A stretch of DNA of 62,482 nt from Pseudomonadota bacterium (GTDB taxonomy: Bacteria > Chloroflexota > Ktedonobacteria > Ktedonobacterales > JADMIN01), in contig JAJPIU010000065.1 in the NCBI GenBank assembly GCA_021324535.1, positions 1 to 62,482 of the forward strand, read 5' to 3'. The notes beneath the pieces are model-generated. The model did not search any database, was not told the origin of the DNA, and worked only from the letters and a program-made list of their open reading frames with translations. This document shows, piece by piece, positions 31,045 to 40,247 of the stretch; within the stretch, counting starts at the first letter, position 1; each line of letters begins with the position of its first letter. Made by a program: the position numbers and the translations under genes.

Positions 31045-31605
31045 ATGATCTCGACAGGCGATCTCAAAAAAGGGATCTCGATTGAACTAAACGGCCAGCT
31101 CTATACCATTGTGGACTGGCAGCATATCAAGATGGGGCGCGGCGGGGCCATCGTGCGGATGAAGCTGCGCAACCTGCGCACGGGCGCCAACATCGAGCAC
31201 ACGGTGGACGCAGGCGAACGTTTCCAGCGAGCGTTTTTGGAGCGCCGCCCCGTGCAGTATTCCTACAATGACGGCGATACCTACTACTTCATGGACAATG
31301 AGACATTTGAGACGATCCCGCTGACGCTTGAGCAGCTTGGCGATGCGAAGAACTATCTGCTGGACGGCATGCAGCTTGAGATCGTCAGCTACAACGACGA
31401 GCCACTGAGCGTTGAGTTGCCTGTCACCGTTGACCTGGAAGTCACCTATACCGAGCCTGGCTTCAAGGGCGACACCGCCACTGGCGGCACAAAACCCGCC
31501 ACGCTGGAGACGGGGCTGGTAGTGCAGGTGCCGCTATTTGTGAAGACAGGCGAGAAGATTCGCGTGAAGACCGACACCGGAACCTATGTCGAGCGTGTCA
31601 GCTAG
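31045..31605 (+). CDS. efp: Elongation factor P
   Basis: MISTGDLKKGISIELNGQLYTIVDWQHIKMGRGGAIVRMKLRNLRTG; three EF-P domains. Confidence 0.95.
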   Translation: MISTGDLKKGISIELNGQLYTIVDWQHIKMGRGGAIVRMKLRNLRTGANIEHTVDAGERFQRAFLERRPVQYSYNDGDTYYFMDNETFETIPLTLEQLGDAKNYLLDGMQLEIVSYNDEPLSVELPVTVDLEVTYTEPGFKGDTATGGTKPATLETGLVVQVPLFVKTGEKIRVKTDTGTYVERVS

Positions 31606-31677: not shown

Positions 31678-32184
31678 ATGGCCCGTGAGCGCGTGGATCG
31701 CGATTCTCTGCTCGCTGTCACTCCGTTGAGCGTGGCCGAGCTACGCCAGCTTATCACGCTGATGAACACCAGCGACATTGGCGAGTTGACCATTGAAGAG
31801 GAGGCGTCGGGGCTGAAACTGACGTTGCGCAAGCCCGCCGTCCCTATGGGCTACTTCTCTGAGGACGCCGATGGAAGCTACGACGAAGACGAAGGCTCCG
31901 ACGATGAAGAACAAGCCGCTCAGGATCAGAAGCTGATCACCGTACGGGCGCCGTTTGTCGGCTACTTCCGCGCCAGCCTGAAACAAGGGGGCGCGCCGCT
32001 GGTCGCCCAGGGCGATGTGATAAAGGCCGAGAAGCCACTCGGCGCTATCGAATCACTCAACGTGCTCAACGAGATTATGGCGCCAGCCGACGGGCGGCTC
32101 AAACAATTGCTAGTGAGCGATGGCGAGCCGGTGGAGTATGGCAAGCCACTGATGGTGATCGAGCCAAAGGCGCCTGCCAGGTAA
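31678..32184 (+). CDS. Biotin/lipoyl (BCCP-like) domain protein lacking the biotin-acceptor lysine
   Basis: BCCP architecture directly after efp; ...EKPLGAIESLNVLNEIMAPADGRLKQLLVSDGEPVEYGKPLMVIEP aligns to IEAMKxMNEI with N at the Lys position. Confidence 0.88.
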   Translation: MARERVDRDSLLAVTPLSVAELRQLITLMNTSDIGELTIEEEASGLKLTLRKPAVPMGYFSEDADGSYDEDEGSDDEEQAAQDQKLITVRAPFVGYFRASLKQGGAPLVAQGDVIKAEKPLGAIESLNVLNEIMAPADGRLKQLLVSDGEPVEYGKPLMVIEPKAPAR

Positions 32185-32190
32185 CAGCAT

Positions 32191-32913
32191 CTACGGCTGT
32201 TCATCCCTTTTATCCTCGGCGCTCTCGGCGTTCTCATCGAAAAGGCCGGGGATGGGGTCAACCACCATCACACCATCGGCCAGGCTGATTGACGTGATGA
32301 ACTGCTTGACGGCAGGGAGCAACACGTCCTCGTCGCCATGACCATCCGCGTGTGGGCGCCGCACCACATAGAGGTCGCTGGCGCCAGTGGTGATCACATC
32401 TACCAGCACACCAAGCGGCTGGCCGTTCACGTGTCGCACGCGCAAGCCAATCAGTTCGTGCAGGTAATACTGATCGGGCGCGAGCGGCGTCAGTTCTGCG
32501 CTGGGGATGTAGAGATGCTGGCCCCGCAGACGTTCGGCTTCGGTCGCTGTCGTAATTCCACGCAGCCGCAGCAGGATGAAGTCGCTCTTTTGCTGTTTGT
32601 GCAGGCGCGCGCCGATCACCTCATAGGGCATTGGCGCGGCGCTGAGCGGCTGCTGTTTGCTTAAATACAGCGTTTTCAGGCGCAGAAAGTGATTGGGGAA
32701 GTCGGTTTCGGGGCGTGCTTTGATCTCGCCTTGCACGCCAAATGCGCCCACGATCAGCCCAACCTCTGCCCAGGCGTCGGCCTCATTATGAGCGCCAGGC
32801 GTATCCTCATGGGAGCCGCTGGGATGCAGAGTAGGTGTTGGTGATGAGTGCGACGGTTGGCTATTCGGGGTTTTGGCGCGCTGGCGGCGGCGTTCCTCGG
32901 TCATCAATCTCAA
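32191..32913 (-). CDS. rimM: Ribosome maturation factor RimM
   Basis: VGLIVGAFGVQGEIKARPETDFP, LRGITTATEAERLRGQHLYIP, YYLHELIGLRV. Confidence 0.92.
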   Translation of the reverse strand: MRLMTEERRRQRAKTPNSQPSHSSPTPTLHPSGSHEDTPGAHNEADAWAEVGLIVGAFGVQGEIKARPETDFPNHFLRLKTLYLSKQQPLSAAPMPYEVIGARLHKQQKSDFILLRLRGITTATEAERLRGQHLYIPSAELTPLAPDQYYLHELIGLRVRHVNGQPLGVLVDVITTGASDLYVVRRPHADGHGDEDVLLPAVKQFITSISLADGVMVVDPIPGLFDENAESAEDKRDEQP

Positions 32914-36653: not shown

Positions 36654-39600
36654 TTATACACGCGCGGGCAGGCGCGGTTGGCTATGGCGCGGGGCAGCCT
36701 GGGAGGGTAGCCGCGCTGTATCCGGTGGCCGACCAACGCTTCTCTCTGCTCTCTGTTGAATAGATCGCCAGAACTGCTGCGTTTTGGGATCGGGCGCAAC
36801 GCCGAGCGTCTCACGCAACGTAGCGACGCATTGCTGATAAGCGCGCGCGGCGGCGCTATACTCGCCATTCAGCGTATAGGCCGCCATCAGCCCGCGATAG
36901 GCGTTCTCGTTGATGGGATCGGTTTCCAGGATGCGATAACAGTATTGCGCGGCGCTATCCCAGCGTCCAAGAGCCAGCTCCACCTCGGCGGCGCGTTCGA
37001 GACAACGCAGAGCGATGCGTTGCAGCGCGTCTTTGCGTAGAATTGCCCACTCTTCATAGTGATCCGGCAGGTAGGGGCCGTTCCACAACGAGAGCGCCTG
37101 CCGGAAGATGCGTGTCGCCTCAGTCAGTGAGCCGCTCTGCGCAAGCTCCTCGCCCTGGCTGACCAGCGCCGTAAACGCATGGGAATCGAGCCAGACATCG
37201 CCAGCCACCGACAACGAACTGCCTGTCTGGAGGAGTGGCTCACAACCAAGCGACTCACGCAAATGCAGGCGCGCTTTCTTCAGCGCGCGCTCGAACTGTT
37301 CGGGGTCACGTTCAGGCCAAAGCGCCTCGTGAATGACATCCTTCGAGACAGGCTTCCGCTGCTCAGCCAGAAAGAACAGCAGATCACGCGCCTGCGGATG
37401 CTTCCACAACGCAACCACCTCTGACCCCAGCAGAACACGCGGCTCGCCAAGCGTATAGAGGCGCAGTTGCATATCTTTGTTTGCGAGCGATGGAAAACGA
37501 TCCGTCCGTGGGCGTGTGCCTGCCTGTTTCTCTCCCTCAGCAGTCCTGCCGGTCTCCGCCTCCAAAGCTTCCAACAACGCAATGGCTTGGCGTGCCACAG
37601 GATGCTGTACACACGCAAGCGCATCGCGCAAGGGCTGATGAAATCTGGCGTCCAGCCAGACCAGCGCCGCGCGTTCTTTCTGCTGCCCCGTCAGTGTCAG
37701 CGCAGTGTCGCAGGCCTGTTCGAGGAGACGTTCAGCGCGCTGTTGATCGTCCTGAGCGCCATTATCGAGCAACACCCTGGCATAGTACATCTGCACTGTG
37801 GCATAATCGTCCGCCGAATTGCCTCGTAGGGCAAGGCGCCCGGCTACGGCAAACCACTTTTCTGCCGCTCTCCGCCGATTTTGCTTCCAGGCAGTAATAG
37901 CGCTTGCCAGTATCATCTGAGTCTCATCAGAAGTCCGTTCTGATGAACGGTGGCGTATTCGCCTGAGGAAGCGCAATTGCCCTTCCGCGTGATCCACACT
38001 ACCGTTGAACGCCAGCGCAATGCCTTGAAGCGCATAAGTATAGAGGATCAATCGCTGATCGCTCTGTGTATTCATCACCCGAATCGTTTGCTCAAAACGC
38101 TCAATAGCCTGGGCATACTCGCCAACTCGCAAAGCAATATCACCAAGGTTCAACAGCGCATAGGCCTGGCCTGCCTGATAGTGGGCATCTTCGGACTGAC
38201 GTAACGCCGTTTCCAGATGCTCCCTGGCTTGCTCAATCTTCCCCAGGTGGTGGTCAGCCGCGCCAAGCTGCAGGCGGGCGCTGATCGCGATAATCTCATC
38301 ACCGGCCTCCTGGGCGTAGCGTAGCGCATCGAGCGAGTCGCGCTCAATCTGCTGGTAGTCACCACGCAGGAGCGCAATCTGTGACCGGAAGTAGGCGACG
38401 CGCGCCAGCAGCCAGAGACCGCCTTGCCGCTGGCAGTAGGCTTCCGCCTCTTTCAAAAGGCGTTCGGCGACCTCCGATTGCCCTGTCTTGTTGTAGCATT
38501 GCGCCAGCGCAAAGCGGAGCCGCGCCTGCAATTCGTCTGCGTCGGAAGGGGCAAGCGCCAGCCCCGCCTCGCTGGCTCGCCGCGCTTCGGCGTAATCGCC
38601 CTGCACGAAACAGACCTCCGCGCGTACAGCCAATGCGCTTGCAGCCAACTGGGGCTGTTCATGGGCGAGTGGCTGCGTGAGCGCACAGGCGCGCTGCGCC
38701 AGCGCCCCGGCTTCCTCGGTACGGCCAAGCTGGCGCGTCAGTTCCGCCTGCAAGATCACCAGATGGGGTTGCTGCGAGCGAACGTCATCCGGCAACAGAC
38801 GCAGCCAACGCTCAAGTGTGGCGCCGCGTCCGGCGCGCAACAGGGTTCCCCGCACGGACTCGATCACCGTGACGATACGCCCATAGGCGCCTACAGCATG
38901 GAACTGCTTGATGGCTTCTTCCAGGTCGCCATCTTGAGCCAGCAGCGTTCCCGCTTTGATGCGCGTCTCATAGGCGCGTTCGCGCCCACCTGTCTCCGAC
39001 GCGAGCCGCCGCAGCAACGCCGCGCGCAAAAACGGCTGGAACGCATAGCGCGCCTCCTGGGGGCGCAGGCCGAAGCGTGTGACCAGGCCGGTGTGTTGCT
39101 CCAATTGAATGAGGCGAGCGCGCGCCTGTGGTTCGTCGAGCAGCCGCTCACACAAGGAAACCGTCATATAGTTCAGCGGCGCGACCGCTAACGCAAAGCC
39201 AAGTTCGTCCTCATCAAGCGAGGCTAATACCTCGTGGGCCAGATAAGCGCTGACGGCTGCATGATTGATGCCGTCGTCGCCATCTATCCCCATTCCTACT
39301 GTCGGCGCCAGACGTCTTGGTGTCTGTGGCGGCCAGAGAGCATTGGTCGCCAGCAAAACACCTGTAATCCATCCTGCGCAGAGATCGGCGACCGCCTGAC
39401 GGTACGCAGGGTCATCGGGCGCGTCAATCAGTTCAAGCAGGGCGTCAAGTTCGTCGTCTTCCAGGCGCAGTTCGCGTGCGCCAATACCTGCCACACGGCC
39501 CTGCGCCAACGCCTGAGAGATGTTGAGCGCGGGGGCTTCGCGCGTCTCGATGAGTGTTCGCAGGTGATCAACCGGGCGGCCAAGCACGGCGTCGAGCAGC

Positions 39601-40247
39601 GCCAGACCGCCGCTCTCTTCCGCAAGCTCAGTGACACCAGTCACCGCCAGGGCGGCCGGGCGCATGATATTTGCGCTGATCTCCTCGGCCAGCGCCGCCG
39701 CGACCCGATGAATGTTCGCTGGCTCCCAGGCGCTCTGCCCGCCCGGCGTAATAGCCCCCGCACGCCACTGCGCCGAGCGGGGCGCCAGCCGTCGCAACGC
39801 CTGAATGAGATCATGCGTGAACGTGACGGGATCGTTGTCGCTGGCGTCAAGATGGAGCCAGGCGGAGGGAAGCCCTGACGCCTGGAACCATTGCGCGATG
39901 GTGACGCTTTTGCCATAGCCCGCAGGGGCAGTAATGAGAAAAATCGAGCCTCCGGCGACACTTTTGCCCAAAGAGGCGTCGAGCAGAGCGGTAAGGCGCT
40001 GGCGCGGCAGCAGCGCGTGTGTGTGGGCGGTTGTCGAGGCGGGCGCCGCGAACTTCCAGGCGCGTGCAGCGGGCCGCCCAAACACGGCGCTCCTGTCATC
40101 ATCTGGGGCGCCATCGGTAGAGCCGAAAGAACAACGCTGCAGCGCATGTGGCGTTTTGAGTAACGCATCCCCATCCCATTCGCCTGGCGTTTGCGTCGTC
40201 TGAGAACAGACTATAGGGGTTTCAATGCGCTCATCTCGAAGAGCCAT
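36654..40247 (-). CDS. SARP/BTAD-domain transcriptional regulator with MalT/LuxR-like NTPase and TPRs
   Basis: 1197 aa; ITAPAGYGKSVTIAQWF; C-terminal LYTLGEPRVLLGSEVVALWKHPQARDLLFFLAEQRKPVSKDVIHEALWPERDPEQFERALKKARLHLRESLG + BTAD. Confidence 0.92.
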   Translation of the reverse strand: MALRDERIETPIVCSQTTQTPGEWDGDALLKTPHALQRCSFGSTDGAPDDDRSAVFGRPAARAWKFAAPASTTAHTHALLPRQRLTALLDASLGKSVAGGSIFLITAPAGYGKSVTIAQWFQASGLPSAWLHLDASDNDPVTFTHDLIQALRRLAPRSAQWRAGAITPGGQSAWEPANIHRVAAALAEEISANIMRPAALAVTGVTELAEESGGLALLDAVLGRPVDHLRTLIETREAPALNISQALAQGRVAGIGARELRLEDDELDALLELIDAPDDPAYRQAVADLCAGWITGVLLATNALWPPQTPRRLAPTVGMGIDGDDGINHAAVSAYLAHEVLASLDEDELGFALAVAPLNYMTVSLCERLLDEPQARARLIQLEQHTGLVTRFGLRPQEARYAFQPFLRAALLRRLASETGGRERAYETRIKAGTLLAQDGDLEEAIKQFHAVGAYGRIVTVIESVRGTLLRAGRGATLERWLRLLPDDVRSQQPHLVILQAELTRQLGRTEEAGALAQRACALTQPLAHEQPQLAASALAVRAEVCFVQGDYAEARRASEAGLALAPSDADELQARLRFALAQCYNKTGQSEVAERLLKEAEAYCQRQGGLWLLARVAYFRSQIALLRGDYQQIERDSLDALRYAQEAGDEIIAISARLQLGAADHHLGKIEQAREHLETALRQSEDAHYQAGQAYALLNLGDIALRVGEYAQAIERFEQTIRVMNTQSDQRLILYTYALQGIALAFNGSVDHAEGQLRFLRRIRHRSSERTSDETQMILASAITAWKQNRRRAAEKWFAVAGRLALRGNSADDYATVQMYYARVLLDNGAQDDQQRAERLLEQACDTALTLTGQQKERAALVWLDARFHQPLRDALACVQHPVARQAIALLEALEAETGRTAEGEKQAGTRPRTDRFPSLANKDMQLRLYTLGEPRVLLGSEVVALWKHPQARDLLFFLAEQRKPVSKDVIHEALWPERDPEQFERALKKARLHLRESLGCEPLLQTGSSLSVAGDVWLDSHAFTALVSQGEELAQSGSLTEATRIFRQALSLWNGPYLPDHYEEWAILRKDALQRIALRCLERAAEVELALGRWDSAAQYCYRILETDPINENAYRGLMAAYTLNGEYSAAARAYQQCVATLRETLGVAPDPKTQQFWRSIQQRAERSVGRPPDTARLPSQAAPRHSQPRLPARV

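Follow-up and report, generated by a model that had tools for sequence, protein, structure and literature searches.

Plant BADC proteins are paralogues of the biotin carboxyl carrier protein (BCCP) without a biotinylation motif, and they coexist with the lysine-bearing BCCP of the heteromeric acetyl-CoA carboxylase (ACC) of the plastid. They have been called unique to the plant enzyme, with a role in assembly being favoured (PMC11926652, 2025), and their role has also been described as mixed and condition-dependent (PMC12873504). The bacterial systems to be compared are AccB itself (TIGR00531; E. coli structures 4hr7 and 1bdo) and BC1 of Chloroflexus aurantiacus, a fused biotin carboxylase-BCCP whose BCCP domain, according to PMC11077971, tetramerises biotin carboxylase and is biotinylated (Lys553). 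No lysine-less protein was found in the searched text of the latter paper, and a literature search, with subscription journals mostly outside its scope, turned up no description of a lysine-less AccB family in bacteria. The window considered here is the whole analysed stretch of 62,482 nucleotides (contig JAJPIU010000065.1, assembly GCA_021324535.1) from a member of the Ktedonobacterales in the phylum Chloroflexota. It carries at 31678..32184 on the forward strand a gene for a lysine-less BCCP paralogue of 168 amino acids, referred to below as psi-AccB. We consider, with a probability of roughly 0.6, that psi-AccB is a non-biotinylatable AccB paralogue which is still built into the heteromeric ACC in a BADC-like way. 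In distinction to the plant proteins, to which it is likened by description, it is bacterial and is encoded beside efp or in acc operons.

The open reading frame has 168 codons, an ATG start and a GGAGG a few bases upstream. The first-pass annotation had described it as an open reading frame of BCCP architecture following efp, and this is borne out by Pfam, TIGR00531 and AlphaFold for the protein and by the Pfam domains of EF-P for the neighbour. The protein scores 41.8 bits against Biotin_lipoyl (PF00364, cut-off 22.1) over residues 89-161 and, over residues 18-162, 79.2 bits against TIGR00531, the model for AccB, the latter score staying below the curated equivalog cut-off of 115.2 bits. Among PDB entries it matches E. 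coli BCCP (4hr7) best. The AlphaFold prediction, run with 20 relatives, shows a helix (residues 19-31) and a hairpin (36-51), followed by an acidic linker, which is disordered, and by a barrel of very high confidence. On the forward strand the N-terminal region with helix and beta hairpin, assigned by AlphaFold secondary structure and profile alignment, corresponds to 31729..31833, the acidic linker, EDADGSYDEDEGSDDEEQ, of low confidence (pLDDT about 48-49 over residues 61-80), to 31834..31932, and the biotinyl-like barrel, assigned by PF00364 and by superposition on 4hr7 chain G, to 31933..32172. Superposition of the predicted barrel on chain G of 4hr7, which is E. coli BCCP crystallised in complex with biotin carboxylase, gives 0.7 A over 76 columns, and hhalign aligns the psi-AccB and canonical AccB profiles from residue 13 over 145 columns (probability 99.9%, E 1.8e-32). 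Judged from this alignment, psi-AccB keeps an N-terminal region of BCCP type. Full-length architecture, barrel and efp-adjacent gene are hence shared with bacterial AccB, while the acceptor lysine and the preceding Met are absent. With BC1, which is presumably from the same phylum, it has in common a BCCP-type barrel, which in BC1 plays a structural role in the biotin carboxylase tetramer; BC1, however, is fused and biotinylated.

In place of E-A-M-K psi-AccB reads ESLN, within the motif IESLNVLNEI, and alignments with E. coli BCCP and canonical AccB put Asn128 (codon AAC, 32059..32061, forward strand) at the position of the biotin-acceptor lysine. The replacement by Asn had been proposed in the first-pass annotation, which placed the codon at 32062-32064, one codon too far. 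The 60 tallied lysine-less proteins of the phylum all belong to one conserved family, in which the acceptor position is occupied by N in 32, G in 13, R in 8, D in 3, Q in 3 and H in 1 and the preceding position by L in 55. In all 37 tallied canonical BCCPs of the phylum both M and K are present. From these alignments the conserved trait is the absence of the lysine together with the Met-to-Leu change before it, and not Asn itself, so that the advised check of relatives for a conserved Asn bears out the loss of lysine and not the residue replacing it. As biotinyl and lipoyl domains share the barrel fold, one could think of biotin, lipoate or another group being carried on a different residue. 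We regard this as very improbable, since the alignments of lysine-less proteins show no conserved replacement lysine in the barrel, the acceptor position is variable and the flanking Met is lost as well. The former acceptor hairpin stays conserved within the own order (LNVxNEV). In families f12 and f22 the lysine-less proteins (L140, L197, L198, L199, L203, L204) have a barrel shorter by about 6 residues before this hairpin, and for this reason appear to have drifted further from BCCP.

Psi-AccB is not the only BCCP of the cell, since the same assembly (4.65 Mb, 91% complete) encodes a normal AccB on contig 94, in the order accC-fabF-accB, with the motif VEAMKVFNEV and a score of 119.7 bits against TIGR00531, above the 115.2 cut-off. 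The second AccB with EAMK for which a search had been advised is therefore present. AccA is encoded on contig 166. The assembly has six PF00364 matches in total, the remaining ones including acyltransferase lipoyl domains and the carriers that serve other carboxylases. Both genes were looked for in 33 genomes, and the same pairing was found throughout, each genome having a lysine-less copy and a separate lysine-bearing AccB, mostly directly after fabF. Of the 15 genomes with a lysine-type accB of the efp lineage, 14 are without a second ACC-type BCCP, carriers of other biotin enzymes being set aside in this count. The exception is G154 with two additional BCCPs, both with the lysine. These two (L236 1405-2013 and L247 1327-1749) have the unusual motifs EVMKLMH and GVMKTFH. 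As far as the sequences go, the pairing fits a loss of the lysine restricted to genomes in which catalysis is left to another AccB.

In a search for relatives 58 of 61 genomes, the own one included, gave a match. A lysine-less copy was read in 44 of the 47 genomes of the order, with N, R or in one case H at the acceptor position; G015, G029 and G031 (76-87% complete) gave canonical AccB only and no lysine-less match. Phylum-wide, 224 of 241 genomes had matches, many of them weak or canonical, and stretches were read from a spread of families. Within the own order, an efp-adjacent BCCP-like gene without the lysine occurs in f1, f2 and f4, apart from one f2 genome in which no efp was seen next to the gene. 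Such a gene also occurs in f7, f10, f13, f16, f17, f23, f26, f27, f51, f54 and f71. Five more families, f3 (also of the own order), f12, f22, f28 and f34, have lysine-less copies for which no neighbouring efp was seen, and bring the total to 19. In f5, f6, f24, f47, f56, f58 and f72 the gene next to efp reads a normal EAMK, and in f15 and f52 a normal copy was found that was not seen beside efp.

The lysine-less proteins diverge strongly between families. Within three genera a simple Nei-Gojobori count, in which some pairs are saturated, gives pairwise dN/dS values of 0.05-0.32, and psi-accB is under purifying selection. A pseudogene or a sequencing error, for which it may be said that Lys (AAA/AAG) and Asn (AAC/AAT) codons are one base apart, has a probability close to nil and was ruled out by conservation and dN/dS: the lysine is absent in genomes of 19 families, dN/dS is far below 1 and the entire motif is altered, not a single base. 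With error, a conserved neighbouring lysine and lipoylation all made unlikely by the alignments, the view that the protein should not be biotinylatable is supported. The free tree has two or more lysine-less groups. When the motif columns are masked and a single lysine-less clade is constrained, the tree is slightly better (AU p 0.62), and a single loss of the lysine may be compatible with this masked-motif tree. The fabF-linked AccBs cluster together (support 94).

For the outside comparison a first control, in which 68 of 68 proteins had the lysine, was set aside, since ten genomes were re-examined and the proteins were largely carriers of other biotin enzymes and not AccB. Part of a further set, L305 among it, likewise turned out to be carrier domains of HMGL/PYC_OADA-type proteins. 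Carrier domains in genomes outside the phylum have K in 82 cases and Q in 1, this set coming partly from other biotin enzymes. The control rests on AccB from within the phylum and on true efp-accB-accC loci outside it, which have a normal EAMK or ESMK (L335, L336, L339, L340, L342-L344, L346, L347, L349).

The order efp-accB-accC is the usual one outside the phylum, and adjacency to efp is also found in sister families with canonical accB. The linkage to efp needs no functional meaning, because canonical accB has the same position elsewhere, and for this reason a functional link to EF-P was not accepted from gene order alone. The remark of the first-pass annotation that accB often lies after efp holds for the place as such; psi-accB appears to be the positional equivalent of accB turned non-catalytic, and not a stray extra copy. 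Two lineages put the gene within acc operons. G036 (L142 3923-4425) and G034 (L120 3713-4204) both have accC-psi-accB. In G036 about 50 bp separate the accC stop from the psi gene and about 30 bp the psi gene from accB, and the copy in the acc cluster of G034 has His at the acceptor position. Both genomes also retain the efp-linked psi gene (L105, L116), and so have two lysine-less copies each. In f12 and f22 the psi gene is followed by accC and fabF, and also by accB in those stretches that extend far enough (L140, L197, L198, L203, L204). This linkage to acc operons is the sole hint of a partner that is independent of homology. A recruitment of psi-AccB outside ACC, as a plain protein-binding barrel serving another biotin carboxylase or a process linked to EF-P, would suit the position beside efp and not in the acc cluster in most genomes, the two further biotin carboxylase domains of the own genome and the strong divergence between families. 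We take it as unlikely in view of the two lineages with the gene in acc operons, the retained N-terminal region of BCCP type and the ordinary efp-accB order that canonical genes show in sister families as well as beyond the phylum. The idea that the protein may regulate ACC, hinted at in the first-pass annotation by its comparison with BADC, gains support from the constant pairing with canonical AccB and from the acc-operon linkage in two lineages.

If psi-AccB is a subunit of ACC, the following series of events can be put forward. The phylum would have come to possess both an efp-linked and a fabF-linked accB, and the latter would have taken over the carriage of biotin. The efp-linked copy would then have lost the acceptor lysine and kept the BCCP fold and the N-terminal region. 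By means of this region and the barrel surface psi-AccB would fill sites of BCCP within the subcomplex of biotin carboxylase and BCCP, and it would stabilise or tune the complex without carrying carboxyl groups. Incorporation into ACC, the direction of the effect and the order of duplication and lysine loss are what we infer. An assembly or stabilising subunit appears more likely than a simple inhibitor. As a component of ACC acting mainly as a competitive brake, psi-AccB would displace biotinylated AccB and lower activity under some conditions. This was the first model put forward for plant BADC, as cited in PMC11926652, and the hairpin conserved in the own order may still allow the barrel to dock at active sites. 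The NMR study in the same paper favours assembly over inhibition in plants, and a role mainly as a brake seems decidedly doubtful to us.

Several points weigh against psi-AccB being a BADC-like subunit of ACC. The support comes from sequence, model and gene order. The pairing with a lysine-bearing AccB may stem from one ancestral loss, and 33 related genomes do not amount to independent counts. In the own order psi-accB is mostly found beside efp and apart from accC-fabF-accB, linkage to acc genes being restricted to a minority. Some complete genomes of the phylum gave weak matches only, and psi-AccB is therefore no general requirement for ACC. More tentatively, and with a chance somewhat below even, much of Chloroflexota may early and independently of plants have turned the efp-linked accB, once catalysis had passed to the fabF-linked accB, into the gene of a dedicated BCCP subunit that is not biotinylated, with ACC needing this subunit for assembly or control.

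Should psi-AccB indeed be such a subunit, it would be a bacterial counterpart to BCCP paralogues so far described as unique to plant plastid ACC. Its origin would probably be separate from that in plants, and two lineages would have arrived at the same solution. It would also offer a small system in which to weigh assembly against inhibition, models which are still competing in plants. In many genomes of the phylum the gene that follows efp and is annotated as accB would encode a protein unable to carry biotin, and metabolic reconstructions would be affected as a consequence.

Among carriers encountered outside the phylum, those that match best in many Clostridia belong to HMGL/PYC_OADA proteins encoded beside a biotin carboxylase gene. 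The carrier at L305 115-1980 belongs to a protein of the HMGL/PYC_OADA type, in which an AccB-like stretch precedes the barrel. In G424, a genome of another phylum, L353 63-560 encodes a lysine-less BCCP with EVLQ that groups with a lysine-bearing sister and is possibly an independent loss.

Within the window, efp (elongation factor P; Pfam EFP_N, EFP and Elong-fact-P_C) lies upstream at 31045..31605 on the forward strand and is separated from psi-accB by 72 bp, in which no terminator-like site was found on the forward strand. At the end of psi-accB there is a weak terminator-like hairpin (32183-32201), the number of such sites being near chance. Downstream follow rimM, a KhpA-type KH gene and rpsP, all on the opposite strand. 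Further on, at 36654-40247 on the reverse strand, the window encodes a regulator of 1197 amino acids with BTAD and MalT-type TPR regions.
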